43,287 bases of DNA from positions 1-43,287 of IMG/VR virus record IMGVR_UViG_3300044997_001403, one strand, 5' to 3'. The notes under the pieces are model-generated. The model did not search any database, was not told the origin of the DNA, and was given only the letters and a program-made list of their open reading frames with translations. The translations under genes were made by a program, and so were the position numbers. Source of the DNA: a virus. This document shows positions 20,301 to 43,287 of this stretch, piece after piece. Numbering within the stretch: position 1 is the stretch's first letter; every line of letters begins with the position of its first letter.

Positions 20301-23300
20301 GGCAGTTTTGGACTTTTTTACCGACCGTCAATTTTCACTTGATCTATCACCAACAAGCGAGAAACTTGTTGGCTACTACAACGCTGCGATTTTGTCGTGG
20401 GTGAAGAAGATGATCACTTCAAGTGAGATTAAAATTTGGAAACTTCAACGTGGACTTGAAGGTGAGGCTGCGGAAAGATCACCAGAGTTTCGCAAATTTT
20501 TGTTAGATAATGAAGAAAATTTTGCCGACCGTGCTGCTAAAAAAGCACAAGAATTCATGTATGATCCACAGAAACAAGGGGATGATGTCGAAGAGGCGGT
20601 TAGGTATTTGATGAAAAAGTTGATTTTTGGACAGACTGTAAAAACTGCAACAGGATCAGAACTTAGAACTGGTGTATTAACTTCTGATGAAAAAATTCGT
20701 AGGTTTATTCAAACTGTTATTCCACGTGCAGCTGTGCGGCTTGGGTTTTTAACGGAAGGTGGTGCAGCGTATATTAAAGAACTTCGACTTAAAAATGCGT
20801 CTCCAACCGCAGAAGACTGGTTATGGCTTGATCCGTTTTCTGCTGGTGCAAAAAGAACGGCAGCTATTCTTGCTGCAAAAAGAGATGCAGCTGAGTCACG
20901 GAGCCAAAAAGCACAGATCGCACAGGATAAAATGACTGTAGAAGGTGTTCCAGACATTTCTGCACCTTTGCCTGGGTTGAGGTTTGCAGAAGTCATGCAA
21001 GTGCTTGATTCTGCTAGAGATTCAACTAGTTTTGTTAAATCAACTTTGTCTTTGTTTAGACAACTTTTTGCAAAAGAAGGTCAAGGTCCAGCTGCAAAAA
21101 TGATGGCTGAAAGGACTGATTTCATGACCCGTGTTGCTTCTGTTTTCAAAAGTGCAGATGACACTGTTGTTAGTAAAACAGATTCTGACCAGTTTTTTGG
21201 TGCAATGATGGGTAGAAAACAAGCAACAAACGGCGCGTTGCCGACTATTTTGATGCTGAATGTGAACAAGCTGAAAACTATAAACAGAAGTGCCAGAACA
21301 ATGCTGCACTCGACTGTTTTAGGTCACGAAGCTTTTGAGGTTGTATATCATAAGTACAAAAACGGCATGTTGTCTCAGGTTGAAACAGAAGCGATGACTC
21401 AGCTTTTAGCTGGTTTTGCCGCTTTGACTCCCGCAGATCGTGCGCAATACATGCGTCAGGTTGCAAATGAACTTGTGGTAAAATCAGATGTTTCAAAAAA
21501 CTTTGAATCTCAAGCTGATTTTCAAAAAATTCTTGAAAACATTATTGAGTCAACTGCTACAAGTCCAAAAGAAACTGCTGCGACAATTGCAGGTTTTTAT
21601 GCAATCGCAGCCTCTTCAAAACGTGCAGCGGAAGTGATGAAAGATGCTGCTGATGGCCTCGACACACATGTCACAAAAGTTGGACTCAGTGTTGTTGAAA
21701 ACATGAGTGATATGGCGGACATTGTTAAGTCGGCTGTGAGCAATCCTTTTCTTGCTGAGGTCTTTAAGCCAACAGAAGGTCAAAACACAATCAATCCTTT
21801 TTACGGCGAGATTGCTGGACTTTATCAAAAGTTTTCACGCACTGCGGCGGAGATTGATGCGCATATTAGTCAACTTGATCATTTAAGATCAATGAACATT
21901 GATGAATTTGTGCGAGATAAAAGTTTGCATATTTTGGACAAAGTACCAAAACAGTTTATAGAATTCGGTTTTGCTGACCTTGCTTTGGAGGGAATAAAGG
22001 TTTTGGCTCCTTCCCAACGGACTATTCATCCCGTCAATGAATGGTTAGAAGGAATGGTGACTTTGACAGAAGCGCATCCTAAATTAAAACCGATTCTTTC
22101 TGAAAGTTTGAAGTTTCAAGCGAGAGTTGAAGAAGCAGCTGAAACTTTAATTGCACCTTTTATGACAAAAACACCAACAGGTCTTATGCAGAAGCATATG
22201 GATTCTGTAAATTTTGTTATGCGTGATAAGAAGCTTTCTGATTGGTTTTCTAAGTGGACTCGAGATGAGCAGCTAAAAGATAGACTTTGGACTGCCACTG
22301 AACAAGTTGCAGCCTTTACGAAAGCAGGTTTTTCACCAGAAATTATTCAACACTTACAGACACTCAGAAAACAAATTTCTGATTCTTCTGTTCAAGGTGC
22401 AAAATTATTAAAAAATTACACACAAGAACTTGCAACGCACGTGCTTGCTCAATCATTTATGCGATATGACCCAGCAATGGGCTATGAAGCTGCACTTACA
22501 GACGCTGCTCTTGCAGTGAGGTGTAAATTGGTAACAAAGCACGGTTTGGTTGATCCTACAATGCAACCACCAGATGCTTTGGTTGCATGGGCTGGTTTGG
22601 AAAATAAATTTAGAGGAACAACAGTTGAAGCTATTTTAACGCCGAGTACTGAAAATCTGGTTGAACCTGTTGCAAATCTTCATGCACATTTAAGGGGAAG
22701 AGAGCATTTTATTACAGAAATGCGATATGGAAAGTATCAGGTTACTTACAAAAAACGAAACTCTACAACCGGACAAGAAGAAACCGGAAGAGAAAGTGCT
22801 TCAAATGAAGCTGATTTACAAGTTTTATTTGACCAAATAACAAAAGACCCTAATTATGTTGTTGATTCTTGGAACGCAGATGTTTTTGAACCTGGAACTT
22901 TACCGGGTTTTTCACAAAAAGTCGCTGATCTTTATGAAAAAGTTGAAGACCGTGCTTACAACACAGCTTTAACACACATACCAGCACCAAGTGCTGATAT
23001 TATGCGCACTCAGTATCAACCAATGGATGCGGCAAGACAGGAGATGTTTAAGCGCGGGTTGCAAAAATATACACAACCTAGGTCGTTTTCATTAGGTCGT
23101 GAAAACCTAAACATGATTGATCAGCATATTCAATATATGATGTCGATGCCCTCGGCACTTGGAAAAAATTGGATGCGCCATAGGTCAAACACTGTTTTAA
23201 TGGACCCTGTTTTTATGCAAGACGCGCAGCTTGCTGAACTTGGTAGGTCTAAGTTTGAAACAATGATGGTTTCTAGTGGTCCTGTAGAGAATGCAGTTAG

Positions 23301-25008
23301 AGCTGGAACTGTGTTTTGGTATCTTGGTGCAAACTTGTCATCGATGACAGTTGAGTTTTTTCAAGGACTACAAAACATCCCTGCAACTCTTGCAAGATAT
23401 GGTGGTGACGTTGGAGAGTCTTTTGGAATTACTCTTAATGCTTACAAAGAGGTTTTGCAAGAGTATTTTACAGGGAAGTTTACTGATCCTTTTTATCAAC
23501 AGTATATCAGTGAACTTCAATCAAGAAGAATTCTTGACAGGGGCATTGTTTCTCAGTTTGTTGACTCTTCGATGATTAACATTTTCCGTGAACAGATTAA
23601 ACAAAAAAATTATAAAGGTTTACAAGGCGTTGCCTCAAAATTTGTTGTCAGCCCTTTAATCTTTGCAGCTGGAAAATCTCGCGACATGTATGCAGTTGCA
23701 ACAGCAGCTTCAACTAGAATGTCAGCTATTGCTGGTTTGGCTTATGCTAAAAAATTAGTAACAGCCGGAAAACTGGCACCTGAAAAAGTTGCGGATTTTG
23801 TACAAGATATTGTGTTGCAGGCAAGTCCTGGTACAGGTGGAAAAGCTGTTCAACCTATTAAAATGCACAGCGGTAAAGTCCTTCCCCGTGGAGTAACCAG
23901 TGTTCTTGCTACATTGCAAAACTTCACAATGCAGATGACTTACATGATGTGTCGTCGCGCGCAAGCTGCTGTTAGAAGTGGAAGTTGGACTTCAGCAGAA
24001 TCAAAATCAGCTATGATTTTATGGGGAACTCAGTTAGTTGCAGCAGGTTTAATGGGCTTGCCAGGAGCGGGTTCTGCAATTGGGCTAATTAAACAATTCT
24101 TGCCTGGTCTGGAAATTGAAAAAAACATCAAAACCTTTATTGCTAATCTTGCCGGTGAAGACGCTGCGCTTGGACACACTTTGTCCAACACGTTTATCCA
24201 CGGTATTGTGAATCAGCTTACGGGTTTAGATATTTCATCTCGTGTTGGGTTGGGTAACATGTTTGGTGTTTCTGGTTTCGATGGTGTTTCAATTAGCTCT
24301 TTGTTGAGTGCACCTGGTGGTATTCTCGAAGGAACACTTAGAGCTAAAGAAAAAATTGACAAAGGTTATATCGCCGAAGGTGTAATAGACATGCTTCCTA
24401 TTGCACTTAGAAACATTGTCAAAATGGCCTATAACAGAGGTGCTACTTATGACAGTGCTGGCAACCTTATGCATCAAGCAAAAGGAATGGAAAACTTTGC
24501 CCAAGCAATTGGTTTCACTCCAGCTTCACTTGCGCTTTCGCGTGAACAAAACCGTATGCATGGTATTACCGAACAAGTCAGCGCGGCAAGGTTGAATGAA
24601 ACAGTTTCAGCCGCGACGAGAAAATATGCCACTGGACAGATTGCAGAAGCAAGACAAATTATCAATGATTATTTAGTCAAAAACCCTGGTGTTTCGCCGG
24701 AAAGTGTTGTTAATTCTGTTGCACGACGAGTGGTTAAACGTGAAAATGAACGACAACCAAGTGCAGGCGCATCTGCTAGAACTGCAAAAAGTAGAGGTGA
24801 GATTGCAAGAGCTTTTAACTCTGTAGGAGGAAAGGGCACTTATTTTGAACAAGCAAAAGAGACGGTTAAGGTTGCAAAGGATTTGGGTGTAAATACTAAA
24901 GACCCAGGAGCAAAATTCAAAGCTGCGGTTATGAAGGATTTTATGACTTCAAAGTTTCCTAAAAAATCAGCAGCGGAAATTGAAGACATGGTGAGGAAAA
25001 TGAAGTAA
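17389..25008 (+). CDS. Giant internal virion protein with polyvalent-protein features
   Basis: At 2539 residues this is the largest protein. Residues about 85-175 are Gly/Ala-rich and hydrophobic. About 280-460 is a Lys/Thr/Pro linker. Residues about 470-600 contain small beta modules. HSTVLGHEAFEVVYH at 1307-1321 resembles a zincin helix but reads HExxE rather than HExxH. Residues about 1960-2350 are hydrophobic and helical; GLDISSRVGLGN there resembles LPD38-type domains of large polyvalent phage proteins. The C-terminus is basic. It probably enters the host with the DNA and may help form the transfer channel. No RNA polymerase motif of N4 vRNAP type was recognised. Confidence 0.75.
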   Translation: MSKYADLVELYNKVKNTPSFKGMSIEEFQQDVDRLYASIGEAPRFGEAANPDNFKAFSKTLTDLVKDSWLESGTGAVGSVLGRPFNLQEAGERGGKSAARGFVNMVPMIGASLASGPAAPIVGGAGLFGTAGLFGSQAYEETGDIGEGLKSAAIALAVPKVIGKIGESVTGGLQSMSPATRGLGSSMLQRTAGEAAGQVGGGALFEGIHQIENYQKTGEFDVSPDNFFERQVSNAVYLPLSAPTILRKTSYDRMKQIEKTEGKDAAQKYASVERELTARQKQAEVDAAIEKKKTTEQARLNKGAQPAATPTTTPSAAEVPFDAPPGVKPKQKVRQKKTTPADEQSKATDALFDDDTVTLQPKTASDTEASPFSQKTVESVKEELAPSGANQIPIENVPKPTMIGGDVVKNSPPEETVPQLQGTVTTGEVKAGIREVVKELEKGTVAEQTQPELTGVAAPETNVGKSAIYIETGEKLTVIGPTANVPDYFDVKTEGGELVSISADEFRFETKEEAKATNEVRNEAVKKAISGVPENPFYKAGTSVWVYPNRNRVGAFTATVLGVEGPDSKMLKVQDKQGNTLVVPQDSLAWISHPSRTITGKDKLKLAQNTFLSFSDGAKKNWVAQTMGDKMFESFARNLMEKNSNITVDEIVDKLALFIADRLIFEANKLEMSVDDFNIMLESMDTFKVEGMRANTEPVFQRWLAANEGKLTHAFQELQRIDSAYGAEVLRKRNNNEYSTVEEYRKALSEYPSKVLASLQRELTQTEQGAREIAAESGRTEQVIYKLLAQYSNNIGRLLAMDRAELKNTLRSSMSKASVDAIRKESVLISSKKKQTEDQVEEIRDKYESDENADSGYYVKSVPNNNGTFDVYVYQRSSLSRDAAVAESEEYTGVESEEAVFEQMAETGNQIAAMQEIHRTLVRMETEDFKSAQTMGDYWAQKLSDLKESIFLTLQNLPNSRERDMQAVRAMAVLDFFTDRQFSLDLSPTSEKLVGYYNAAILSWVKKMITSSEIKIWKLQRGLEGEAAERSPEFRKFLLDNEENFADRAAKKAQEFMYDPQKQGDDVEEAVRYLMKKLIFGQTVKTATGSELRTGVLTSDEKIRRFIQTVIPRAAVRLGFLTEGGAAYIKELRLKNASPTAEDWLWLDPFSAGAKRTAAILAAKRDAAESRSQKAQIAQDKMTVEGVPDISAPLPGLRFAEVMQVLDSARDSTSFVKSTLSLFRQLFAKEGQGPAAKMMAERTDFMTRVASVFKSADDTVVSKTDSDQFFGAMMGRKQATNGALPTILMLNVNKLKTINRSARTMLHSTVLGHEAFEVVYHKYKNGMLSQVETEAMTQLLAGFAALTPADRAQYMRQVANELVVKSDVSKNFESQADFQKILENIIESTATSPKETAATIAGFYAIAASSKRAAEVMKDAADGLDTHVTKVGLSVVENMSDMADIVKSAVSNPFLAEVFKPTEGQNTINPFYGEIAGLYQKFSRTAAEIDAHISQLDHLRSMNIDEFVRDKSLHILDKVPKQFIEFGFADLALEGIKVLAPSQRTIHPVNEWLEGMVTLTEAHPKLKPILSESLKFQARVEEAAETLIAPFMTKTPTGLMQKHMDSVNFVMRDKKLSDWFSKWTRDEQLKDRLWTATEQVAAFTKAGFSPEIIQHLQTLRKQISDSSVQGAKLLKNYTQELATHVLAQSFMRYDPAMGYEAALTDAALAVRCKLVTKHGLVDPTMQPPDALVAWAGLENKFRGTTVEAILTPSTENLVEPVANLHAHLRGREHFITEMRYGKYQVTYKKRNSTTGQEETGRESASNEADLQVLFDQITKDPNYVVDSWNADVFEPGTLPGFSQKVADLYEKVEDRAYNTALTHIPAPSADIMRTQYQPMDAARQEMFKRGLQKYTQPRSFSLGRENLNMIDQHIQYMMSMPSALGKNWMRHRSNTVLMDPVFMQDAQLAELGRSKFETMMVSSGPVENAVRAGTVFWYLGANLSSMTVEFFQGLQNIPATLARYGGDVGESFGITLNAYKEVLQEYFTGKFTDPFYQQYISELQSRRILDRGIVSQFVDSSMINIFREQIKQKNYKGLQGVASKFVVSPLIFAAGKSRDMYAVATAASTRMSAIAGLAYAKKLVTAGKLAPEKVADFVQDIVLQASPGTGGKAVQPIKMHSGKVLPRGVTSVLATLQNFTMQMTYMMCRRAQAAVRSGSWTSAESKSAMILWGTQLVAAGLMGLPGAGSAIGLIKQFLPGLEIEKNIKTFIANLAGEDAALGHTLSNTFIHGIVNQLTGLDISSRVGLGNMFGVSGFDGVSISSLLSAPGGILEGTLRAKEKIDKGYIAEGVIDMLPIALRNIVKMAYNRGATYDSAGNLMHQAKGMENFAQAIGFTPASLALSREQNRMHGITEQVSAARLNETVSAATRKYATGQIAEARQIINDYLVKNPGVSPESVVNSVARRVVKRENERQPSAGASARTAKSRGEIARAFNSVGGKGTYFEQAKETVKVAKDLGVNTKDPGAKFKAAVMKDFMTSKFPKKSAAEIEDMVRKMK

Positions 25009-26762: not shown

Positions 26763-27049
26763 TCGGGACAAAAAGTTTGGGTTTCGTCTTTTTCGTTTTT
26801 AACTCGTTTCCAACCAAGCCAGTCGTAATGCTGGATTTTGTGACAATCTTGACAAGCGATTATTATTTTTTTGTCGACTAAGTTTTCACATTTTTCACAT
26901 TCGTCTTTAAGACAAAAGTAAACGTGCATCAACTCGTCGTGGCGACTTTCTACTGAGTGGAAAAGACTAGGTTCAAAGTCTCTTCGTCCATGTTGTTCAG
27001 ATGATGCGATACGTAGTACGTTTCGGTTTGGTTTTGGTTGTGTGCTCAT
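26747..27049 (-). CDS. Cys-rich zinc-binding protein, HNH-like outline possible
   Basis: A 100-residue protein with paired cysteines CEKC, CQDC and CPEC and several His residues (QHGRRDFE, SRHDELMH, KIQHYDW). The ACQDCHKIQHYDW segment could be a metal finger as seen in HNH-type endonucleases, but the HNH triad is not clear. It overlaps the polymerase stop by 4 nt. Metal binding is likely; activity is unknown. Confidence 0.6.
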   Translation of the reverse strand: MSTQPKPNRNVLRIASSEQHGRRDFEPSLFHSVESRHDELMHVYFCLKDECEKCENLVDKKIIIACQDCHKIQHYDWLGWKRVKNEKDETQTFCPECHTT

Positions 27050-29571
27050 TTTGTTTTTACACTATGTTTTAGTTCACCCCAAGAGGGGCCATATTTAGTT
27101 TCTACTCCAATCTTGACCCGAAGGCCATTGATTTCAAAAGGTTGGTCAAATGCTTCTTTGTTTAGTTCGGTAAAGAGTTCAAGCTGATCTTTGGGAAACA
27201 TACCAAAAATTGCATCATGAATTGGAAGTCTTATGTCAACTATAAGGCTTCCATCTTTTCTTTTGTTTTTTGGGCTGTTGAAAAAATGAACTGCTGCACG
27301 ATTGGTGATCCAAGTGGTGTTGAATTGTGGAGTAGAGGCAAGACATTCTTTTAGAGTGCCAGGAACAACGCCAAATTTAGTCGGACCAGATGGGTGAATT
27401 CGATTAAAAAATGAGCGTTTAAGTCCAGAAGCATAAGTAATTTTACCTGCTGATAGAAGCTGATTTGCAAAGTGCTTTTTTCTTTCAACTACACCGGGAT
27501 AGCGTGAAGTGTAAAGATTGCGTAAAGCAGAACAAACTTTGATGTCTGTTAAAATTGCACTGCCGTTGGCTTTGTAAGTATCTCTAATAAGAAGCGACTG
27601 AACTGTAGGATCAGTCATATCGTAGTTTGTACCGTGTTGAATTCTTTTTGCAGTGATGTAAAATGGATGGTCTTTGGAAACTCTTTTTGTTGCCTCAAGT
27701 AAATCTTTTCTTGAAGCTTTTAGCCAATTTGCACCTTCTAAATAAGCAAGACATACAATTTTGGCTGGTTTTAACCCATAGGCAAAATCATCCCACATGG
27801 TTGGATCGCCAAGTAGATAACATTCTGCCGCAACGGTTACACCGTCTGCACCTTCAAGGTCGCTTTGGAAACACCATTGGTCGTCTGGGTTGTCAGGAAT
27901 GAAAATGTAACGATAACGTGGGGTTGCAGTTTGTAAGTTGTAACCTTTGTTAAGCAAAGACTTTGAACAAGATGTACGAATCGTTTCAGTGCCAGCTGGG
28001 TTAAGGCTGCAACGAATGAAACCGTCATCGTCGATTGGAGCTTCTAAGGCTTCTAGTTCAGTGTCAACTGTTCTGATGGCTAGAAGGGTTCTGAGTAAAA
28101 CCTCTTCTCCTGTTGGTTTTATTAACAGGTTTAACAAAGCAAGTTGATTGCAAGAAAGAGCAGTTTCGTCTTTATCTTTGTTGTATTGAGTCTGTTCCGG
28201 CAATCCCAAATCTTTGTACAAAAAGTCTTGCAGCTGGGCCGATGAGTTGATGTTAATCGCTAACCTTGACTGGAAGAAGATTTCACCAAAAAAGACAGTT
28301 GGTAATTTTTCACGAAGATTGGTTGTAAATAAATTTGCAAGAGTTTCAACTGCTTCTTGAAACGGTTTTTTGACACAAGAAACTAAAGCAAGCAAAGTCG
28401 TCGGACAAATGCTTTTCTTTAATCCCCAGTTTTTATGTAGCTTTTGCACTAAAGCTTTTTCAAGCGATGGGTGGTTGATAAGTTCAGCGCATTCATCACT
28501 TGTCAAAACGCCGAGAAGAAAGTAATAAAAACTTCTAAGATATCTTGCGTTTGTTACAGCTTTTTGTCTAGCTTGAGTGTTGAGTCTTATACCCTTCAAC
28601 TGAACATAGACAACAAACTCACCAACTTTCAACATAAAAGCCATGAATTTCTTTTCATCCTCACTCATCATTGCTTGTTGAGCTTTAGCGACTTGCCAAG
28701 GGTAAATTGTGTCTCGACCTGCATATTGTAGTGTGTCTGTTCCAATTTGATGTTTCCAAGGCGGAACGTTAAGCCACAAAGAAACCACAAATCCAAGATT
28801 CATTTCAAACTCTGGATAAAGCATTCGCTGTGCATACATGGTGTCCCAGTACATTCCTTGAACTGCGATGCCGTGATTAAGTAGAACAGAACAATCATAA
28901 GTGTGATTGTGCATGATTTTTTTGATCTTTGGGTTTTGCAAAACCTTTGCAGAATACAACCAAAAAGCACACTCGTCTTCAATACACATTGAAGGCATGG
29001 TGTCGTTGTTGAGTCCAACAACCACTGCACGTCGACCGTTATCACAGAGTGAAAGAACAGTCATGTTATTCACATAACCTTCTATGTCAACACAAAGTAA
29101 AACCTCTTCATCTCTTTCAGCAGCTGAGATAAGTGATTCACAATAAACAATGTACTGGTCAATCGTCGGGTTCGTCAAGACTTGCGGAACTTCACACGAA
29201 AACGGACGAAGCACTTTTGACAAGTGAGTAGACATCACGATTCGGTCAGAATAAACTTTTCTGATGTGTTCAAAGTCGTAGGTAAAAAGAACTGTGAAAT
29301 CAGCTAAAAGTGCACTTTGATTTCCTACCTCAAATTGAGTTCCAATAAAAGCTTTGGTTTGTACTTCACCTAAAGCTTTTTTTGCAAGCTTTAGACCCAA
29401 GATGATTACAAACCAATCTTTTGGATTGATTGTTTCAAAGATTTTTTTACTAAACAACAAATGTTCGTGCACAAAAATAACGTAAGTCCCAACGGGAAGT
29501 CGAGACATTACGTATTTTTTCTCTCCTTCTGACACATATTCGTCAGAGAAAACAACAACGTTTTTAGTCAT
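27046..29571 (-). CDS. DNA polymerase, family A with 3'-5' exonuclease
   Basis: The 841-residue replicative polymerase. The exonuclease shows VDIEG (D162, E164), HNHTYD (to D226) and YAGRDTIYP (D287). In the polymerase domain, NLQTATPRYRYIFIP precedes motif A (SDLEGADG, D571), motif B KRIQHGTNYDM (about 642-652) and motif C IHDA (D786). Motif C has Ala where most family members have Glu (HDE), and motif A has Asp where Glu is usual. Residues 1-140 are an extra N-terminal part that faintly resembles a uracil-DNA glycosylase C-terminal half (INPKDWFVIILGLKLAKKAL). No 5'-3' exonuclease is present. Palindrome site 4 lies inside the gene. Confidence 0.9.
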   Translation of the reverse strand: MTKNVVVFSDEYVSEGEKKYVMSRLPVGTYVIFVHEHLLFSKKIFETINPKDWFVIILGLKLAKKALGEVQTKAFIGTQFEVGNQSALLADFTVLFTYDFEHIRKVYSDRIVMSTHLSKVLRPFSCEVPQVLTNPTIDQYIVYCESLISAAERDEEVLLCVDIEGYVNNMTVLSLCDNGRRAVVVGLNNDTMPSMCIEDECAFWLYSAKVLQNPKIKKIMHNHTYDCSVLLNHGIAVQGMYWDTMYAQRMLYPEFEMNLGFVVSLWLNVPPWKHQIGTDTLQYAGRDTIYPWQVAKAQQAMMSEDEKKFMAFMLKVGEFVVYVQLKGIRLNTQARQKAVTNARYLRSFYYFLLGVLTSDECAELINHPSLEKALVQKLHKNWGLKKSICPTTLLALVSCVKKPFQEAVETLANLFTTNLREKLPTVFFGEIFFQSRLAININSSAQLQDFLYKDLGLPEQTQYNKDKDETALSCNQLALLNLLIKPTGEEVLLRTLLAIRTVDTELEALEAPIDDDGFIRCSLNPAGTETIRTSCSKSLLNKGYNLQTATPRYRYIFIPDNPDDQWCFQSDLEGADGVTVAAECYLLGDPTMWDDFAYGLKPAKIVCLAYLEGANWLKASRKDLLEATKRVSKDHPFYITAKRIQHGTNYDMTDPTVQSLLIRDTYKANGSAILTDIKVCSALRNLYTSRYPGVVERKKHFANQLLSAGKITYASGLKRSFFNRIHPSGPTKFGVVPGTLKECLASTPQFNTTWITNRAAVHFFNSPKNKRKDGSLIVDIRLPIHDAIFGMFPKDQLELFTELNKEAFDQPFEINGLRVKIGVETKYGPSWGELKHSVKTK
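28245..28276. promoter_or_regulatory. Palindrome site 4, inside the polymerase gene
   Basis: Thirty-two nt match the noncoding site 1 region (179-210) at 27 positions, including the flanking GACTGGAAG outside the dyad. The core GTTAATCGCTAAC is identical to site 3. Matching flanks make coincidence less likely. The strand encodes QSRLAININ in the polymerase. Confidence 0.45.
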
Positions 29572-29737
29572 TTGCTTTGGAATAAAATGCTGATTGAAGG
29601 TTGAAGTCTAGGTCGTGAAAAGCACAAGTGTACGTGACTTTTGGGCTTTGCACTTCGACTGGACCTAGCGGTTGGCCAAAACAAAATTTAACAGTAAAGG
29701 TAAGTACACCAATTTGAATTACAATTTTCTTTATCAT
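29564..29737 (-). CDS. Small hypothetical protein between methyltransferase and polymerase genes
   Basis: A 57-residue ORF fills what would otherwise be a 162-nt gap. Its ATG at 29737 overlaps the ParB-methyltransferase stop as ATGA, and its stop lies 8 nt inside the polymerase gene. Such precise coupling on both sides argues that it is translated. The sequence begins MIKKIVIQIGVLTFTVKF and continues with GPVEVQSPKV, suggesting beta strands. No family is recognised. Confidence 0.6.
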   Translation of the reverse strand: MIKKIVIQIGVLTFTVKFCFGQPLGPVEVQSPKVTYTCAFHDLDFNLQSAFYSKAND

Positions 29738-31287
29738 AAAACTTGATCTGACAGAAGACCAAAATCTGCTGGTTCGTGAATGACTGATTGTTTGTTTTGA
29801 ATTAGAATAAACAATTCAACCGCTTGTTGGAGTCGAAACTCTCCACGTGTATAGACATCAGGTTCGAGTTCAATACCATAGACATAAAATCCATGTTTTA
29901 TTCCGGCAAAAACTATAGACCCTGTTCCTGCAAAAGGGTCAAGGATGAAAGCGTTTTTGGAGAAAAAATTTTCCAAAATCCACTTTGAAGCATCAATAGG
30001 TTTAGAAAAAGGGTGTTCAAAGTTATTTCTTGCCTGTCCCCATTCATGTGAAGTGTAAATCGAACTCGCCATCGGTTGCATGAGCGTTGCACCGGGTTTT
30101 CTGGCAACAAGTAGAAATTCATAGTTTTTAGTCGAATTCACATTTGCTTGTTGATTTCTGGCGTTAGGTTTCACCACAATCAAAGGCCAGCGTTGGACGT
30201 TGAAACCAGCGTTAACACATTCGTTTGCTAGAAAAATAAACTTTTCAGGATCACACCATTGAATGAAAAAACCCTTTGGACGGATGACGCGAAAAGCGAG
30301 GTGAGGTAAAATCTGTAAAGTTTTCAAAGCTTTTTCCTCGTCGTGGTTTTCGAGAATAGCGTTAAAGACTTCTGAGTGGCCAGGAACTGTGTTGGTTTGA
30401 GTTATATTATCAAGATCAATGCCGTAAGGTGGGTCGGTGTAAATTCCATCAATACACTCAACTGGCAAATCCGCTAACATTTTAAGCGAATCGCCTTGGG
30501 TGTAGCGGCGACCGACTACATTCATCGCTAAAGGTGGTTTGCGTTGTTGAGATTCAGTTGGAACCAATTTTGGCTTTGGCTGAGGTGCGGGTTCACTGTC
30601 GTCTAGAATGTGGTCAACTTCTATGATTTCTGGTTGAATAAGACCTGTTGCAATTTCAGTTTTTTCTGCATTCTCAACTGCCTCTTTAAGCGCATTGTTG
30701 GTTGTGTTGTTTGCACCGGGTGTGGGTTGGTTTGACTTTCTAAGAAAAAGCAATCTTTGCTCTGCTTTTAGTTCGATTTCTGCCAACATTGCTACCGTTC
30801 CGGCAGAAATTGACTCCGCTGTTGCTGCTGGAGAGTTTGGATTTTTTTCAATGTATTCAGCAAGTGGCAGAATTTGAGAAATACGACCACGGGTTTTGCC
30901 AACCCAATTGCCAAAGGTTTCGTGGGTCCATTTTTCGCCCTTCAAAGCACAAGCTCTTTTTTTAATTTTGAAAAGGTGCAAATAGCCAAGAATTTGTTCT
31001 TGCCAAGTTAAAGGCTCTCGACAAACATTTTCATCAATCTCCATTGCAATTTTTTGCTCTGGAGTTAAATCTTCTCTCTGAACACAAACGATTTCTTCCC
31101 AAGAAAGTTCTACTGCTGCAGTGTATCGACGACCACCACAAACAACTACATTGTCAGCAGTGATAACGATGGGTTGAATTTGACCGTGTTGAACAAGGGA
31201 CTGTTTGAGGATATCTAGATTATCATAAAGTTTCCGCAGACGTGCGGAAAGCGTGAGGTCTTTAAGGCGTTTGGTAATAAGTTTCAT
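29734..31287 (-). CDS. ParB-like domain fused to beta-class DNA methyltransferase
   Basis: A 517-residue fusion. Residues about 1-110 resemble a ParB/Srx N-terminal domain (HGQIQPIVI at 34-42, GGRRYTAAVEL at 51-61) and 110-180 a helix-turn-helix region. Residues about 180-250 are a linker. The C-terminal half has the methyltransferase order motif IV DPPY (285-288) before motif I DPFAGTGS (450-457), so it is a beta-class enzyme; DPPY favours N6-adenine. It may protect phage DNA from host restriction or mark it. Target sequence cannot be read from here. Confidence 0.88.
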   Translation of the reverse strand: MKLITKRLKDLTLSARLRKLYDNLDILKQSLVQHGQIQPIVITADNVVVCGGRRYTAAVELSWEEIVCVQREDLTPEQKIAMEIDENVCREPLTWQEQILGYLHLFKIKKRACALKGEKWTHETFGNWVGKTRGRISQILPLAEYIEKNPNSPAATAESISAGTVAMLAEIELKAEQRLLFLRKSNQPTPGANNTTNNALKEAVENAEKTEIATGLIQPEIIEVDHILDDSEPAPQPKPKLVPTESQQRKPPLAMNVVGRRYTQGDSLKMLADLPVECIDGIYTDPPYGIDLDNITQTNTVPGHSEVFNAILENHDEEKALKTLQILPHLAFRVIRPKGFFIQWCDPEKFIFLANECVNAGFNVQRWPLIVVKPNARNQQANVNSTKNYEFLLVARKPGATLMQPMASSIYTSHEWGQARNNFEHPFSKPIDASKWILENFFSKNAFILDPFAGTGSIVFAGIKHGFYVYGIELEPDVYTRGEFRLQQAVELFILIQNKQSVIHEPADFGLLSDQVL

Positions 31288-31723: not shown

Positions 31724-32275
31724 TTAGCCCAAGAAGCTGTCGATTTGGTTCGACTCTTCGTAACCACCTTTAGCCGGGTTCAAACGAACCTTGACTTTTG
31801 TTCTCCGACCAGCACAGTTAGGCAAAGTGGACTTGTCCAGAACAATGTTGGGGTCTTTGAACACCGCGTTGGTGAACAGCTTCAAACGCCGCAGAATCTC
31901 GTTGCGAGAATAACGCGGTGTTTCTTGAATCGACAAACGCCAAGTACCGGGTAGCTTCTCATGAAAGCGACCGCAGTCATCGGTAACGTCGATAAACGAG
32001 TAGCTGACAACCAGCATCTTGTTGCCAGTTGTTTTCGCAATGGCAATTTCAGCTTTTTCAATATCAATCATTGCGATTGAATTGTCAGGCAACAACGGAG
32101 GACGAGTGGAAACACCAGTCAAGTCGATGGTTTCACCGTCAAACACCGAAGTGATGTCGGATGAAGTGTCGTCGACTGGAGCCTCGCCGTGGTGGTTTGG
32201 CACGTCTTGTGCACCCCAATCAGGTGCTGGTGCTGGTGTTGCTTCTGTTGTTGGGTTTTTCAGTTCGTCTTGCAT
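31724..32275 (-). CDS. Putative single-stranded DNA-binding protein (DUF669-like outline)
   Basis: A 183-residue protein. Residues 1-65 are acidic and disordered; about 66-165 have a beta-rich, OB-like arrangement (AIAKTTGNKMLVVSYSFID, then TWRLSIQETP) with a helix (RRLKLFTNAVF). The end is SNQIDSFLG, which carries the tail motif shared by four other leftward proteins. Phage SSB-like proteins of the DUF669 type have a comparable size and layout. The gene has its own tandem-hairpin leader and a strong terminator, suggesting high expression, as expected for SSB. The call is tentative. Confidence 0.55.
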   Translation of the reverse strand: MQDELKNPTTEATPAPAPDWGAQDVPNHHGEAPVDDTSSDITSVFDGETIDLTGVSTRPPLLPDNSIAMIDIEKAEIAIAKTTGNKMLVVSYSFIDVTDDCGRFHEKLPGTWRLSIQETPRYSRNEILRRLKLFTNAVFKDPNIVLDKSTLPNCAGRRTKVKVRLNPAKGGYEESNQIDSFLG

Positions 32276-32363: not shown

Positions 32364-33131
32364 TTACGTCAAAGTGTCTTCGAGAGGAAGACCGAAGACT
32401 TGGGCTATGGTTTTATAATTAAACGTAATATCAGCTGGTACGTTTTGGTTTGTTGTACCAAGAGCTGCAAATTTATGCAACGGACGAGTACGCACTCGAT
32501 ACATCAGAGTTGGCGGCTTGCCGGGTTCTGTAGAAGGAACGTTTACGGTGTAACATTGCCAAACATTTTGAAACATTCCGCCGATGGAGTGTTTAAGTGC
32601 ACCGCTGATTCCAATTTCGATTGCATCCAAACTACCGTCCTCTTTCAAACGATGGTTTTCGTGAGCATTGACTACAAGATATTTTCCTTGCCCACGGATT
32701 AGGTTAAACAACCCACGCATGAGAACTGAAAAAGGTCGCCATGACGCTTGGTCCATGAGTTTAACTCCAGCATTAACAAGCTTGGTTGTACCGTTGATTG
32801 TTAAATGATCTTGAAGCGCATTGCCTAGTTCGGTAAGTGAATCAATGCCAATAGTTTTGATTCTCGGGTCTTTGCAAGCAGCATCAATTTTTCTCACCGC
32901 ATGTCGCCATCTTTCACTAACATCAACTGGATGGTCTTTGTCATCAGCAATGAGTCTGTCGTAAAAAAACTTTTTGTTCGGAAAGAAAGCTCTACCTGAG
33001 GAAAGTTTATCATCACAGTCGAGGATGTACAACCCTGGGAACTGCATGAGATTTACAGTTTTACCAGAAAAAGGCGGCCCTACCATGAGTAAACTAAACG
33101 GCTGAATTACTTCTTCTTTTGAGTCACGCAT
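32364..33131 (-). CDS. Sak4-like RecA-fold ATPase (AAA_24 type)
   Basis: A 255-residue P-loop protein with Walker A GPPFSGKT at 18-25 and a Walker B-like TIGIDSLTEL at about 93-102. The length and LYILDCDDK strand after Walker A fit phage AAA_24/Sak4 recombinases, which anneal or load recombination proteins with SSB. The neighbouring RecB/Cas4-like nuclease supports a two-gene recombination module (exonuclease with annealing ATPase). It starts 25 nt inside the small ORF 33107-33289. Confidence 0.78.
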   Translation of the reverse strand: MRDSKEEVIQPFSLLMVGPPFSGKTVNLMQFPGLYILDCDDKLSSGRAFFPNKKFFYDRLIADDKDHPVDVSERWRHAVRKIDAACKDPRIKTIGIDSLTELGNALQDHLTINGTTKLVNAGVKLMDQASWRPFSVLMRGLFNLIRGQGKYLVVNAHENHRLKEDGSLDAIEIGISGALKHSIGGMFQNVWQCYTVNVPSTEPGKPPTLMYRVRTRPLHKFAALGTTNQNVPADITFNYKTIAQVFGLPLEDTLT

Positions 33132-36438: not shown

Positions 36439-37107
36439 TTAGTCGGTCAGGCTGTCGAGCAATGCAGCCTCGCGTTGGAGTTTCTCAATGTGCCATTGGT
36501 TGAGCTTGGACGCGATTTCGTCCGCAGACCAAGGATTTCCAGCAGGATTGAGTGCACCGGCCTTGACACAGAATTTTGCCAAACGAGTCTCGTCATCCAG
36601 CACAAGTTGTGCATGGTTTCTGAAGACTTGCGGCACTTCGGATTTCCGAGGCTGACGCAATGCTTCGACCCGGAAGCAAACTTCTTCCGCGCCGTCGGCC
36701 ATGAACTTGGCGAGTGCTGGTGCGAAGTACTGAATTGTAACTTCAGTACCGTTGTTTTGTTCTGTCAATTGTGCAAGAACACGGTTGATGTACTCTTGCG
36801 GCTTCTCCGTGTATTTAATTACGGGTTGACCGTCGCGACCGGTTTTGCCGGTCGGAGTCGAAAGCCGTTTGATGCCGGTTTCTGACTCAATAGTTTCGAT
36901 AACAACGTTGCGAGCGTCGTTGAGTACAGAGTGATAGACGGTTTTATCAACCGCTGCACTCAAGATTGGAGAAAAACCCGTTTCCGGGTCTTTTTTGTGT
37001 CCTCCCAATTCGTTGAAATAGTCCTCTGTGGACGGCACTCTGACATTCCAGTCTATTCCAAAGACTGAGTATGACAGAATGATTGATGTTGCGTGTACTA
37101 ATGGCAT
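36439..37107 (-). CDS. Probably highly expressed hypothetical protein with shared tail motif
   Basis: A 222-residue soluble protein with mixed alpha/beta sequence. It contains FNELGGHKKDPETGFSPILS at about 31-50 and ends REAALLDSLTD, which matches the tail motif. It has its own tandem-hairpin leader (37142-37196) and a strong terminator, the same arrangement as the SSB-like gene, which suggests an abundant protein. Codons here look somewhat more GC-rich than in the neighbouring unknown genes. Its function is not recognised; a DNA-binding or structural role in replication is one possibility. Confidence 0.7.
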   Translation of the reverse strand: MPLVHATSIILSYSVFGIDWNVRVPSTEDYFNELGGHKKDPETGFSPILSAAVDKTVYHSVLNDARNVVIETIESETGIKRLSTPTGKTGRDGQPVIKYTEKPQEYINRVLAQLTEQNNGTEVTIQYFAPALAKFMADGAEEVCFRVEALRQPRKSEVPQVFRNHAQLVLDDETRLAKFCVKAGALNPAGNPWSADEIASKLNQWHIEKLQREAALLDSLTD

Positions 37108-38663: not shown

Positions 38664-38948
38664 TTATTTTTGTTGTCTTGATTGTTTAACTGCTGAGGCC
38701 ATAAGAACTACCAATGCAGATTCAAAAGCCTCTTGGAAGTCAGTGTAAATTAAATTTTCAAACGGTGTCGTTGGTTTTTCAGGGTTTTCAATGACAAAAA
38801 ATAATTTATTGTCAACTTCAGCTGAATAGATGTTACAAATTACATTTACTTTGTCTTTTGAAAAAACTGACAAAGTTTTATATGCTTTGCCTTGTTGGAT
38901 GATTTGAGAGGCAAAAAAACCAGCAAGTTTTTGGTCAATTTCCAGCAT
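38664..38948 (-). CDS. Small protein of the three-paralog family, member 3
   Basis: A 94-residue protein with beta strands (VNVICNIYSAEV, KLFFVIENP) and a final helix (DFQEAFESALVVLMAS). The FFVIxxP strand and A/F-rich helix align with 39303-39566 (AFFVITHP and ALSAAFKALQS) and more weakly with 38964-39287. It lies in a row with these genes, pointing to tandem duplication. Function unknown. Confidence 0.65.
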   Translation of the reverse strand: MLEIDQKLAGFFASQIIQQGKAYKTLSVFSKDKVNVICNIYSAEVDNKLFFVIENPEKPTTPFENLIYTDFQEAFESALVVLMASAVKQSRQQK

Positions 38949-38963
38949 TGTAAATAATTTTTT

Positions 38964-39287
38964 TTAGAGTTGGACGTTATCTTCGTTAAGTTCTTCTTCG
39001 GTGTAGTGTTCAGTTTTATTTAATTGTTCTTCGATTTTTTTATAAATCAAAGCTTGTGCGGCTTGGTAGACTTCGACTAATGAGTTGTAAACTTTCCCGT
39101 CAAGACTAAGGGAAATTAAACCAAAACCATTAGCAAATGCATAAAAAGCGGTAACGCCGGTGACTATAACTTTGACATGACATGCAAAGTTGATTTTTAC
39201 ATCGTCGAGTGTGACACAAACTTGACCGATGAGGTCGCCTTTGGTGCAGATGTAATTTGCGAAGTCTCGTTCTTGTTGTGGGTTCAT
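38964..39287 (-). CDS. Small protein of the three-paralog family, member 2
   Basis: A 107-residue protein with strand-rich core (GQVCVTLDDVKINFACHVKV, TAFYAFANG) and a helix (EVYQAAQALIYKKIEEQL). The order of strands and closing helix follows its two neighbours, but identity is low. The acidic tail is unique. Leader: poly(A) before the ATG. Function unknown. Confidence 0.6.
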   Translation of the reverse strand: MNPQQERDFANYICTKGDLIGQVCVTLDDVKINFACHVKVIVTGVTAFYAFANGFGLISLSLDGKVYNSLVEVYQAAQALIYKKIEEQLNKTEHYTEEELNEDNVQL

Positions 39288-39302
39288 TTTTTTTTTAATT
39301 TT

Positions 39303-39566
39303 TTAGTGAATCAAACCTTCAGTACTTTGCAAAGCTTTGAACGCGGCGGAAAGTGCGTCTTCAGGATGCAAGAACAATTCTGGCACAAGCATTTCATTTT
39401 CGTCAAAAGGATGGGTAATGACGAAAAAAGCGGTTTTGTAAAAATAAGCAATTTTAATTTTAACAACATGTCGCGTTTCTTCTTCTTTGGTGAGAATGAT
39501 TTCACCATAGGTTGTGCCTTCTGCAATGACTGTAGAAGTGAGGACTTGGATGGCTGTAGGTTTCAT
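39303..39566 (-). CDS. Small protein of the three-paralog family, member 1
   Basis: An 87-residue protein with strands (TTYGEIILT, HVVKIKIAYFYKTAFFVIT) and a helix (PEDALSAAFKALQSTEG). It is the first of three related genes and has tandem-hairpin leader copy C. The leader suggests that the three-gene run, and maybe 37381-38655, is one transcription unit. Function unknown. Confidence 0.65.
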   Translation of the reverse strand: MKPTAIQVLTSTVIAEGTTYGEIILTKEEETRHVVKIKIAYFYKTAFFVITHPFDENEMLVPELFLHPEDALSAAFKALQSTEGLIH

Positions 39567-40231: not shown

Positions 40232-41071
40232 TTACTTTTTAATTTGTTTAACAATTCCAAGTTTGTACAATTGTTCCTCGAAGAAAGAATCGTTTTCTGT
40301 TTTGTTTCTACCGTAAAGTGCACCAGCGATTTGCTGTGCATCTTTGGGAAGAAGTTCTGGCGGAGTGTTCACTGGCACGCCGAAGCATCGGTCGTTCCAC
40401 CATTCAAATTTGTCGTAAGAGTGTAGAAGTGGTGAAAAAAAGAACGGTACACGAGAAGCAGTGACCGAGCCAAGCCACCATGCCATTTGACGTGGAGAAA
40501 GCGGGTCTTGGTAATTTTTCACCATAGTCTGTGAAACAAGATAACGTTCACTTGAACGCGTACGTGCACAAAAAGCTATGGTGATTTTACAACGAATTTT
40601 GTGCAACTGAATGATATCAATCAAAGTCATAAGCTTGATTGCACTATCACGAATAGTTGAAGAATCGTTGGAACAACTCATTGCACGGTCGATATAGAAG
40701 TGGACCATTTTGTTTCCACCTTTTTCTCGCCGAGAATCACAAACCTTAAAATAAGGTTCAGCGTCGTTGTCAATAACTCTGCCAACATCATACAAATCTT
40801 GTGCCTCGTCGGTGAAAACGTATTTTTTTGCCATTCCGAATTTTTTCTTGGCATCGAGAGTGAACGAAGTATTTGTCGGTAACTCCATCCCTTTGATTGC
40901 TTGGGCTTCAAAAGAGTCGATTGTGGCAGTTTCGAGAAAACTTTCACTTCCAAGCATGAACAAATTTTGACTAATACGTTTTTCTTCGCGCATTAGACCG
41001 ATAAGATGAGTGCGAGAACGGAATTCAATCCGTTCAAAAGTTTTTTCGTTTTTGTAAAATTCGGTGAACAT
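40232..41071 (-). CDS. VWA-like (CobT-type) partner of the AAA+ ATPase
   Basis: A 279-residue protein. Residues about 120-180 resemble a von Willebrand A core: strand VHFYIDRAMSCSND (128-136 in place of the MIDAS DxSxS, here DxAxS), helix with KLMTLIDIIQLHKI, then strand CKITIAFCART. Phages often encode such proteins beside MoxR/CobS-type ATPases. The gene begins 5 nt after the AAA+ gene. By analogy the ATPase would remodel a target delivered by the VWA partner. The target is unknown. Confidence 0.6.
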   Translation of the reverse strand: MFTEFYKNEKTFERIEFRSRTHLIGLMREEKRISQNLFMLGSESFLETATIDSFEAQAIKGMELPTNTSFTLDAKKKFGMAKKYVFTDEAQDLYDVGRVIDNDAEPYFKVCDSRREKGGNKMVHFYIDRAMSCSNDSSTIRDSAIKLMTLIDIIQLHKIRCKITIAFCARTRSSERYLVSQTMVKNYQDPLSPRQMAWWLGSVTASRVPFFFSPLLHSYDKFEWWNDRCFGVPVNTPPELLPKDAQQIAGALYGRNKTENDSFFEEQLYKLGIVKQIKK

Positions 41072-41076
41072 AAAAG

Positions 41077-42312
41077 TTAGCCTAGAAGTGAATCAAGGTT
41101 GACGTTGTTGCCGCGTTTGCTTTTTTCCGGCGGACGCGGTGGATTTTGATAAGCAGGTTCATTGTAACGATTGGATGTAGGTTGAACCACAGGTGTCGGT
41201 GATTGATTAACACCAAGTACAACTAAAAACTGATTCAACTCTTTCGTTAAAGCTTTCCAATCATCATCACAAGTGCCGCGACGGATGAAAATGTTAAGCA
41301 TCCAAGACAAAGGAAGGTCGGCGCAAAGCTTTGCACCGGCGATTGCGGCGCGAGGTGTGATGAGAATGCGAAGTTGAAGTCTTTGTGCTTCCTCCATGAG
41401 AAAGTGAACTATTTCAGTCCACTCTTCAGCATTAACTTTTTTGCCGGTGATATCTAAGATGTTCTTTTTGTCTTGCCGATATTTTCCGGTGGTTAAGAAC
41501 CACGTCAAACCGTAGTCATAAGGCCAAGCTAAGTAGCCAAAGCGATCAAGCGTAGCAGCGTCGAGTTGTTGTGAACCAACATATTGTGCGTCGGCGCCGT
41601 TGCCGTCGGTGTTGCCACCGGCGATGAAACGAAAGTTTGGGTGCTTTCTCACCTGACGGTCAGGGAATTCACAAAGTTCACCAGCTAGGGCTGAGTTGAA
41701 AACTGCCACAACACCTGCTCCGCCTTTGTCGAGTTCGTCGGCGAGGTAGATGCCACCATGCTCCCAACATGAGCGAAAGCCGGAAGGTCGATATTCTCCT
41801 GATGGTGGAAGAACACCAAGAATATCGGATTTGGAAGTTTGGTCGCAAACAGAAAGAAAACGAAATTGAACTCCCATTTCTTTGGCCAATTTTTCGCTGA
41901 CGGTGGTTTTGCCACCACCAGCTGGACCGACGAGGTAGACGTTTTGTTTTTTTGCGAGCAAAATTCTCACCACAGGGGTGAGAAAATGTTCTGGAGCTTT
42001 TTGTTCAACCTCGATTTGTTTTTCCACTTTCTCCGGCTCAGGAAGTTGAACAGAAGCGTTGACTTCTTTGTTCATGCGGTGCTTCACCGTCGCGGTGCGC
42101 AACAGCGCGCGGATTTGTGCGGCGGTGAGGTTTTTGATCTGGTCTGGATGCAGGTCAACCCATTTTCTGGAGACATAAAATTGAAGATGGTCGACGAGAG
42201 AAAAATAGGAAGTGTTTCCTACTTTAGTCACCGTGCTCAACGCAAGCACTTCAATCATTGCCACCCCAGTTGTAGTGCCGGGGATGATTTCAATTGAGAT
42301 TTCTTTAGACAT
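41077..42312 (-). CDS. MoxR/CobS-like AAA+ ATPase
   Basis: A 411-residue ATPase from the ATG at 42312; the longer reading from 42372 adds 20 residues that overlap the previous gene. Residues 1-100 are a separate N-terminal part with a WVDLHPDQIKNLTAAQIRAL helix. Walker A is GPAGGGKT (129-136), Walker B GGIYLADELDK (186-196), and FRFIAGGNTDG fits sensor 1, with DAATLDRF as the arginine-finger region. These match the CobS/MoxR class. The C-terminal end is Pro/Asn/Arg-rich and finishes NVNLDSLLG, the shared tail motif. Confidence 0.85.
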   Translation of the reverse strand: MSKEISIEIIPGTTTGVAMIEVLALSTVTKVGNTSYFSLVDHLQFYVSRKWVDLHPDQIKNLTAAQIRALLRTATVKHRMNKEVNASVQLPEPEKVEKQIEVEQKAPEHFLTPVVRILLAKKQNVYLVGPAGGGKTTVSEKLAKEMGVQFRFLSVCDQTSKSDILGVLPPSGEYRPSGFRSCWEHGGIYLADELDKGGAGVVAVFNSALAGELCEFPDRQVRKHPNFRFIAGGNTDGNGADAQYVGSQQLDAATLDRFGYLAWPYDYGLTWFLTTGKYRQDKKNILDITGKKVNAEEWTEIVHFLMEEAQRLQLRILITPRAAIAGAKLCADLPLSWMLNIFIRRGTCDDDWKALTKELNQFLVVLGVNQSPTPVVQPTSNRYNEPAYQNPPRPPEKSKRGNNVNLDSLLG

Positions 42313-42346: not shown

Positions 42347-43018
42347 TTAGTCAAACAAAGCATCAAGATCAATTGATTGTTCTGGCTTTGCAGTCAACTT
42401 TGGCGAAGACTTGGATTTCGCCTTCGGCGCTGATTTTGTTTCTTTCTCAGGTTTTTCTTCTTCACAAATAGGTTCAAGGCTGCCATTGGACACAACTTCC
42501 CAGCGATCGCAAGCTGGAAAATGCACGAAAGAATGAATGTCGGATTCGAGATATTGAACCGCGGTGCCAAGCTTTAGCATTGAGTTAACCTGCATCGCCC
42601 TAAGCGATCCAACTCGCCATAGATGGCGTGGGGCGTAAGTTTGAAATTTGAATTGCCCCAACAAAAGGTCGACATTGATCTCGCCGCCGGCGTGGATGAA
42701 AGAGTTCAAAGACGAGGTTTTTGTTTCACTTGAACTTCTCAGAGGAAGATAGGAAAAACTAAGATGAATTTCTGCTCCCCAGAAGGTGACGGCGTTGGCG
42801 AAAGTTTCATCTTCCCAAGCTGCAAAAAGAGAAGCTTCAAAGTCGATGTTTTCGATGCCGAAAGAAGTGGGAGAAGCCTTCCACTTTACAGGGATTTCCA
42901 AAAGTTTGGGCTTTTCAATTGGAAAAGCTGAAGAAAAATTGGCAAGAAAAGATTGCATTCTCTTTTTGCAAAGCTCAGCAACAAGTGGATTTTCACGTGA
43001 TAAGTAGAATTCATTCAT
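42347..43018 (-). CDS. Hypothetical protein with disordered end and tail motif
   Basis: A 223-residue protein. Residues 1-175 are an ordered alpha/beta part (FEASLFAAWEDETFANAVTF region, then beta strands). Residues about 185-215 are Lys/Ser/Pro/Glu-rich and disordered. The end SIDLDALFD fits the shared tail motif. It is first in the leftward run and precedes the AAA+ gene by 34 nt. Its leader has CAAAA-type repeats. The disordered linker followed by a short hydrophobic tail resembles how SSB proteins display a recruitment peptide. Confidence 0.65.
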   Translation of the reverse strand: MNEFYLSRENPLVAELCKKRMQSFLANFSSAFPIEKPKLLEIPVKWKASPTSFGIENIDFEASLFAAWEDETFANAVTFWGAEIHLSFSYLPLRSSSETKTSSLNSFIHAGGEINVDLLLGQFKFQTYAPRHLWRVGSLRAMQVNSMLKLGTAVQYLESDIHSFVHFPACDRWEVVSNGSLEPICEEEKPEKETKSAPKAKSKSSPKLTAKPEQSIDLDALFD

Positions 43019-43165: not shown

Positions 43166-43215
43166 GGAACATGGAAGCTCTACTGTCATTGCTACAAAAT
43201 GGGGGGGGGTGGGTG
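43166..43215. repeat. Right arm of imperfect terminal inverted repeat
   Basis: Reverse complement of 63-112 at about 39 of 50 positions, including TTGCTACAAAA at 43189-43199 and GGAACATG at 43166-43173. The G-run at 43201-43209 pairs with the C-run of the left arm. Confidence 0.6.
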
Positions 43216-43287
43216 TATAGTATATAAATAAAAAAAAAAAAAAAAAAATAAATTACTGGGGGGGGGGGGGGCGCGGGGGGGGGTGGA
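43216..43287. repeat. Right terminal homopolymer element
   Basis: A TATA-rich stretch (TATAGTATATAAATA), an A-tract of about 18, TAAATTACT, a long G-run, GCGC and more G. The first part resembles 1-51 in direct orientation. The closing G-run could be a sequencing artefact because the left copy has a C-run at this point. Confidence 0.5.

Follow-up and report, generated by a model that had tools for sequence, protein, structure and literature searches.

Several described systems combine an AAA+ ATPase with a VWA domain. Rea1/midasin (MDN1) carries both the AAA+ ring and a VWA domain with an intact metal ion-dependent adhesion site (MIDAS) in one giant chain, which acts in ribosome assembly. In NorQ/NorD of Paracoccus denitrificans and Jhaorihella thermophila (PDB 9qh4-9qhg), the AAA+ protein and the VWA-type protein are encoded by separate genes; a finger of NorD (residues 403-448) enters the NorQ pore and is required for remodelling (PMC13036017), and NorD MIDAS mutants still bind NorQ, yet fail on the target and give no active enzyme (PMC9976466). 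Among viruses, MoxR/VWA pairs have been described in a Bacillus phage and in archaeal viruses (PMC2147016, PMC7911831, PMC4124505), and a cobST cluster has been reported in many tailed viruses, with a proposed hijack of host CobN (PMC8651126). Here we analyzed the virus record IMGVR_UViG_3300044997_001403 as a whole (43,287 bases and 39 predicted proteins; hereafter the window), focusing on two adjoining genes for a CobS/NorQ-like ATPase and a VWA-like partner of the DUF7192 family. With moderate confidence we propose that they encode an ATP-driven remodelling machine of the NorQD/CobST type that lacks a MIDAS.

The leftward block occupies the right end of the window, and the ATPase gene (41077-42312, minus strand) and the partner gene (40232-41071, minus strand) are its second and third genes, separated by 5 nucleotides (nt). 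Both reading frames and the gap lie exactly where the first-pass annotation had put them; it had also set the pair at the start of the block, which is right as to the block and wrong as to the first position, since the gene at 42347-43018 stands upstream. The ATPase is a MoxR-class (clade 7) AAA+ protein of the CobS-like family phrog_249, whose PHROGs profile matches residues 74-329 at E 5.3e-40. Pfam AAA_5 matches it at 39.4 bits (cut-off 22), and its closest solved chains by sequence (phmmer against the PDB) are midasin (E 6e-20) and CobS (E 4e-7). Its length of 411 residues is counted from an ATG; the mechanically chosen TTG start would give 431. The AlphaFold2 (AF2) model has a predicted local distance difference test score (pLDDT) of 74.8, with the core mostly above 85. 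CbbQ2 (Z 21.2) heads its VIA-align list, followed by NorQ (20.9), and the ten best CbbQ/NorQ entries span Z 21.2-17.9. Because VIA-align aligns only Foldseek's top chains, the absence of MCM and CobS from this list was not counted as evidence. A conserved L-x-G ... G-x-Y ... F segment occupies the position where MoxR-class proteins carry the helix 2 beta-hairpin insert (H2i), and DSSP assigns no clear hairpin there in the model. Against the PADLOC defence profiles, the ATPase gave weak P-loop matches alone and the partner no match.

The pairing of this ATPase family with DUF7192 is widespread in phages. With the ATPase as query, tblastn returned 428 phage records at an E cut-off of 1e-5, rising to 441 at 1e-3, and 12 of these were inspected for neighbours. 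A DUF7192 gene follows the ATPase in ten of them, immediately in nine and past two small genes in one; the ten comprise phages of Mycobacterium (two), Gordonia, Staphylococcus, Listeria, Acinetobacter and Rhizobium, two crAss-like phages and one environmental podovirus, and all ten DUF7192 proteins exceed the Pfam cut-off. The two remaining records, those of Rhizobium phage RHph_Y2_11 and Pseudomonas phage phiK7B1, encode upstream, in its stead, a long protein whose VWA domain is of the CobT type. Used as sole queries, the window proteins retrieved no relative from IMG/VR, and relatives were gathered instead via ATPase and DUF7192 alignments. Scanning IMG/VR with the ATPase alignment yielded 80 loci, 77 of which hold a DUF7192 gene, upstream in 2 and downstream in 75, where a wide limit of -210 to 1,400 nt was applied (gap of at most 50 nt in 55). 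In the three loci without one, the contig stops 1, 17 and 53 nt past the ATPase. A DUF7192 scan of bacterial genomes gave nine loci, all nine with the ATPase just upstream. Beyond these, the family is rare in bacteria: in a sample of 81 genomes from a single genus, and in another of 198 from the phylum of that genus, the genome on which the sampling was centred alone had it, and it was found in 0/14 control genomes.

When 1,443 gene calls from the 80 IMG/VR loci, the ten phages and the window were clustered, the ATPase and DUF7192 families were each present in 67 locus groups and the next commonest neighbour family in 4. The pair is thus a self-contained module, with no third gene travelling with it, and the MoxR-class ATPase with a VWA-type partner seen at first pass is borne out, here as a conserved two-gene unit. 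The window partner fits this arrangement, with 279 residues against about 280 in the family and a position 5 nt after a phrog_249-type ATPase; we regard the window pair as a divergent case of the module.

A self-contained module might also serve phage structural proteins, and the pair could then be a virion-assembly chaperone acting in tail development, after the MoxR and VWA proteins p618 and p892 of the archaeal virus ATV, which interact, p892 raising the ATPase activity of p618 (PMC4124505). The ATV pair is likened here by description and involves a virion protein. In the window, however, the pair shares the leftward block with genes for polymerase, primase and a Sak4-like protein, the structural genes being in the rightward block, and no structural gene recurs as a neighbour in the other contigs. 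We therefore consider a role in virion assembly unlikely.

Several further arrangements of the pair were recorded. It is also present on contigs of Actinomycetota genomes (L162-L169; Streptomyces, Actinomadura, Saccharopolyspora, Trebonia), where it may lie in prophages and where mechanical gene calling chooses wrong frames in the high-GC DNA. A Spirosoma sordidisoli contig (L170) and an IMG/VR record (L073/L139), both 54,027 long, have two DUF7192 genes after the ATPase, and in phage records of ~76-78 kb (L098-L102) a second DUF7192 gene lies ~3.1 kb from the first.

No VWA family in Pfam, PHROGs or NCBIfam matched the partner. It is assigned to DUF7192 (PF23822; phrog_1909, phrog_35469 and phrog_7005), whose members it resembles in length, place after the ATPase, predicted fold, the D-V-G-R motif, E105 and R207, and it matches phrog_1909 at E 0.012. 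An AF2 model built on 65 alignment rows reached a pLDDT of 80.2 and a predicted template modelling score (pTM) of 0.78. In the PDB, Foldseek ranks 1-3 were NorD VWA chains of NorQ-NorD complexes (probability 0.95-0.99, best E 3.4e-3), and in VIA-align five NorD entries led (Z 7.5-6.6), followed by the Rea1 MIDAS domain (5.7) and many VWA and I-domains; in one of the two best NorD entries residues 1-275 were aligned. Among the viral models of BFVD, the leading named matches were DUF7192 proteins (E 8e-16, probability 1.00) and then CobT proteins, an agreement that is partly circular because the partner model was built with DUF7192 rows. The DUF7192 profile found no solved structure by sequence (best E 0.38). 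Against the CobT profile, hhalign returned P 9e-4 at 23% probability, with R98 on the R of the CobT R-L-T-A-G-D segment and D128 on the first MIDAS aspartate, followed by helix 1 and strand 2; single CobT sequences matched the DUF7192 profile weakly (probability 0.3 and 6.3). Given this in-register match, the two proteins look homologous, and the DUF7192 branch would either have lost the metal site or never have had one.

The best PDB neighbours of the partner model are VWA domains, in keeping with the first-pass assignment of the protein, and the outcome that would have overturned that assignment, a prediction lacking any VWA fold, did not arise. The absolute match is weak, for which reason we grade the VWA fold as no more than likely. 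The separately built ATPase and partner models point to two subunits of one solved complex, NorQ/NorD, which provides the best or near-best structural match of both. The resemblance has its limits, as NorD is a protein of ~70 kDa with an N-terminal domain, a linker and an intact MIDAS, whereas DUF7192 proteins of ~280 residues have none of these.

To describe the metal site, the partner was aligned with 102 distinct DUF7192 relatives. The complete D-x-S-x-S motif is found at the MIDAS position in 0/102, and position 128 is mostly asparagine (N in 49, D in 12, G in 9, S in 9). Counted without reference to the alignment, D-x-S-x-S occurs anywhere in 13/102 relatives and [ST]DG in 3/102. All 16 phage CobT domains, in contrast, contain both D-x-S-G-S and SDG, six of these rows being close kin of locus L013. 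Judged from these alignments, DUF7192 proteins lack an intact MIDAS motif. The D-x-A-x-S reading of the first-pass annotation is correct as to the residues, D128-R-A130-M-S132, whereas its interpretation as a MIDAS is not supported; neither metal insertion, which it had considered, nor metal-dependent gripping is indicated.

Conservation is instead highest just before strand 1: residues 88-108 average 2.43 bits of information, against 1.55 for strand 1 plus the MIDAS position. In this block G91 is kept in all 102 relatives, G102 in 100, P104 in 98, E105 in 89 and D95 in 86; elsewhere, R207 is nearly fixed (99/102). The window partner retains D95, G97, R98, E105 and R207. By its position, the block would be the counterpart of the NorD finger. 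If DUF7192 works like NorD, the part contacting the motor has been kept and the part contacting the client has changed.

It might be argued that the reduced site of the window partner is functional and that the protein is an ordinary MIDAS-dependent VWA adaptor, as D128 and S132 are both in place and D-x-[SGTA]-x-S is found at this position in 7/102 relatives. The family pattern makes this improbable: no relative has the complete motif, [ST]DG, which represents the later MIDAS loop and is present in 16/16 CobT domains, is nearly absent, and the most conserved block lies elsewhere.

We therefore return to a remodelling machine without a MIDAS. In this model the ATPase would form a ring of the MoxR/CobS class, and one copy of the DUF7192-type VWA-like protein would sit on it, inserting the segment before its first strand into the pore as NorD does its finger. 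ATP turnover would then twist the partner against a client. Because DUF7192 proteins, unlike NorD and CobT, have no intact MIDAS, the client would be gripped via another surface and not through a metal ion. The client itself may be a host protein or a phage protein encoded at an unlinked position.

A further feature of the window ATPase is its C-terminus, where a linker leads to the ending NVNLDSLLG. The LDxLL-type tail, common to three other proteins of the leftward block, would probably dock the ATPase to the same hub as these. The motif [IL]Dx[LF][LFTI][GD] occurs five times in the 39 window proteins, four times exactly at the C-terminus and once internally, and as an exact protein end it was found four times among the 1,443 gene calls, always in the window. 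Since the motif was defined after the tails had been seen, these counts are descriptive. By an 8-residue BLOSUM score the window tails are moderately unusual, the best pair being met in 13.5% of random draws and the third pair in 0.15%; the exact C-terminus count is the stronger test of the two. The first-pass annotation had noted the shared tail, which stands for the four window proteins and does not hold for the family: nearly all relatives' ATPases lack it, and most end after the lid domain, so that the tail of the window ATPase is an add-on. The ATPase of Kayvirus G1 also has a linker and tail (DFDTIMDKLGLE), and no other G1 protein clearly shares it. One tailed window protein (31724-32275) had been labelled SSB-like, a label that goes back to its place beside a Sak4-like gene; searches of PHROGs and Pfam brought up no meaningful match for it.

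Three ATPases of the family, at L023 4476-6128, L053 887-1906 and L074 4269-5927, end in DDPFDF, EEDVLPW and GSLPF, respectively, resembling SSB-type tips (in L074 the shorter SLPF).

A number of results weigh against the proposed machine. The partner's PF23822 match (E 5.3e-5, 23.1 bits) falls below the cut-off of 27, it is only 13-19% identical to its DUF7192 relatives, and tblastn with it retrieved no phage record even at E 0.1. It departs from the family at three of the most strongly conserved sites, with glutamine at G91, asparagine at G102 and alanine at P104, and by keeping D128 and S132 it could itself hold a partial metal site. Its Foldseek matches in the PDB include none at E <=0.001 (TM-score for the query, TMq, 0.28; root-mean-square deviation, rmsd, 6.4), its best VIA-align Z of 7.5 at rmsd ~6 is in the range typical of models without a clear match, and the hhalign probability linking DUF7192 to CobT is low. 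A hydrophobic C-terminal contact like that of NorD is not general, the motif chosen for it being found in 31/146. The tail, finally, is a trait of the window phage, not of the ATPase family.

The CobS-like ATPase also raises the question of cobalamin. The name porphyrin biosynthesis is attached to phrog_249, and phage papers treat cobS as an auxiliary B12 gene (PMC9983427, PMC11705849, PMC11288001), the latter two calling the role speculative or uncertain. Together with the widespread phage cobST cluster (PMC8651126), this would suggest a CobST cobaltochelatase helper that works with host CobN and so increases the supply of cobalamin. The ATPase, however, scores 20.4 bits against NCBIfam TIGR01650 (CobS), far below the cut-off of 558.55. 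CobN (PF02514) was found neither in the window nor in any of 50 pair-bearing phage records, a search that was positive in 5/14 control genomes, and cobalamin-dependent ribonucleotide reductase reached its cut-off in 0/50, with lower-scoring matches in four; many of these records may be fragments. The partner differs as well: CobT has a MIDAS, and its gene stands upstream of cobS, CobS following the CobT match in 12/14 CobT loci, preceding it in one and not being found in one, whereas the window partner is short, lacks a MIDAS and is encoded downstream. No DUF7192 was detected in the CobT loci (0/14), and CobT VWA domains occurred in L009 and L013 alone among 144 loci and the window. In the ATPase tree (93 rows), the CobT-associated ATPases (4 rows) form a separate clade with support of 100/100. 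The module is moreover present in a Staphylococcus phage, and S. aureus is not known to make cobalamin. As it is self-contained, with no CobN or other linked gene, the pair is probably not a chelatase and the vitamin B12 label probably wrong; a cobalamin-supply role seems very unlikely to us.

We think equally little of a replicative helicase or DNA-unwinding motor, to which membership of both MCM and MoxR-class proteins in clade 7 AAA+ might lend some support, given the constant pairing with a VWA-like protein and the CbbQ/NorQ structural neighbours of the ATPase. In mycobacteriophage LeBron the ATPase family is represented by gp128 (E 1.5e-102) and the DUF7192 family by gp127 (E 4.6e-75). 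The helicase idea comes from the authors of a LeBron overexpression screen, in which gp128 caused a growth loss of >3 logs and was likened to MCM6 by HHpred; gp127 is absent from the table of toxic genes (PMC13148394). With 38 of 122 LeBron genes toxic in the screen (PMC13148394), the toxicity of gp128 is weak evidence on mechanism.

Table 1. Positions of the ATPase and partner features and of the shared C-terminal tails in the window.
Feature	Coordinates	Strand	Basis or remark
CobS/NorQ-like (phrog_249, MoxR-class) AAA+ ATPase, 411 aa	41077..42312	-	phrog_249, AAA_5, PDB phmmer, AF2 model
AAA+ core, residues 105-365	41218..42000	-	Model confidence; VIA-align range 105-364
Walker A GPAGGGKT, residues 129-136	41905..41928	-	Sequence; G129, G132, G134 and K135 invariant in 13 ATPases
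Walker B IYLADEL, residues 188-194 (D192, E193)	41731..41751	-	D192 and E193 unchanged throughout sets of 13 and of 49 ATPases
Pro-rich low-confidence C-terminal linker, residues 366-403	41104..41217	-	pLDDT mostly <55; most relatives end soon after AAA+ lid
Tail VNLDSLLG of the ATPase	41080..41103	-	4 window proteins end exactly in the motif, as does none of the other proteins among 1,443 gene calls
Divergent DUF7192 (phrog_1909-type) protein, 279 aa, VWA-like, without conserved MIDAS	40232..41071	-	PF23822, phrog_1909, AF2, Foldseek
Predicted VWA-like core, residues 122-275	40247..40708	-	VIA-align rows cover 116-275
Putative finger-equivalent segment, residues 88-108	40748..40810	-	Family's most conserved block; in register with CobT R-L-T-A-G-D just before MIDAS
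Degenerate MIDAS position D128-R-A-M-S132	40676..40690	-	Complete D-x-S-x-S in 0/102 relatives; first position N 49, D 12
Tail LDALFD of 42347-43018 (unknown protein upstream of ATPase)	42350..42367	-	C-terminal motif
Tail LDSLTD of 36439-37107 (unknown protein)	36442..36459	-	C-terminal motif
Tail IDSFLG of 31724-32275 (no meaningful family match)	31727..31744	-	C-terminal motif; neighbour 32364-33131 Sak4-like

Elsewhere in the window, the gene at 27046-29571 (minus) encodes a family A DNA polymerase with 3'-5' exonuclease, whose closest phage records (Bacteriophage sp. from Manatee Spring, Caulobacter phage Kuura, Polaromonas phage Tiera) are ~25% identical, and at 29734-31287 (minus) a ParB-type N-terminal domain is fused to an N6/N4 DNA methyltransferase in one protein. 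Three small adjoining genes at 38664-39566 (minus; 94, 107 and 87 residues) look similar in pattern by eye and may have arisen by tandem duplication. The rightward block closes with a lone open reading frame of 2,539 residues (17389-25008, plus). The one inverted repeat found is a 13-nt palindrome within the ATPase gene. At its right end (43200-43287) the record passes into long C and T homopolymers, maybe an assembly artefact, and the true genome end may be missing.

Together, our results separate a DUF7192-paired, MIDAS-less type of phage CobS-like ATPase from the CobT-paired type and argue against a chelatase for the former. Our open-access literature search found neither a paper naming DUF7192 nor an account of phage CobS paired with a VWA protein that lacks a MIDAS; the present reading is a proposal of a functional class for this domain of unknown function. 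It also makes the LeBron toxicity result testable, by asking whether the partner gp127 tames the ATPase gp128. A bolder suggestion, which we advance tentatively and hold to be rather doubtful, is that phrog_249 and DUF7192 form a separate phage-specialised AAA+/VWA class without a metal grip, in which the VWA protein would be a pore-driven lever and clients would be chosen via variable surfaces and ATPase tails, the tail here placing the motor on one hub with replication or recombination proteins. If this is true, many phage cobS and porphyrin biosynthesis annotations that imply a role in vitamin B12 would be wrong.

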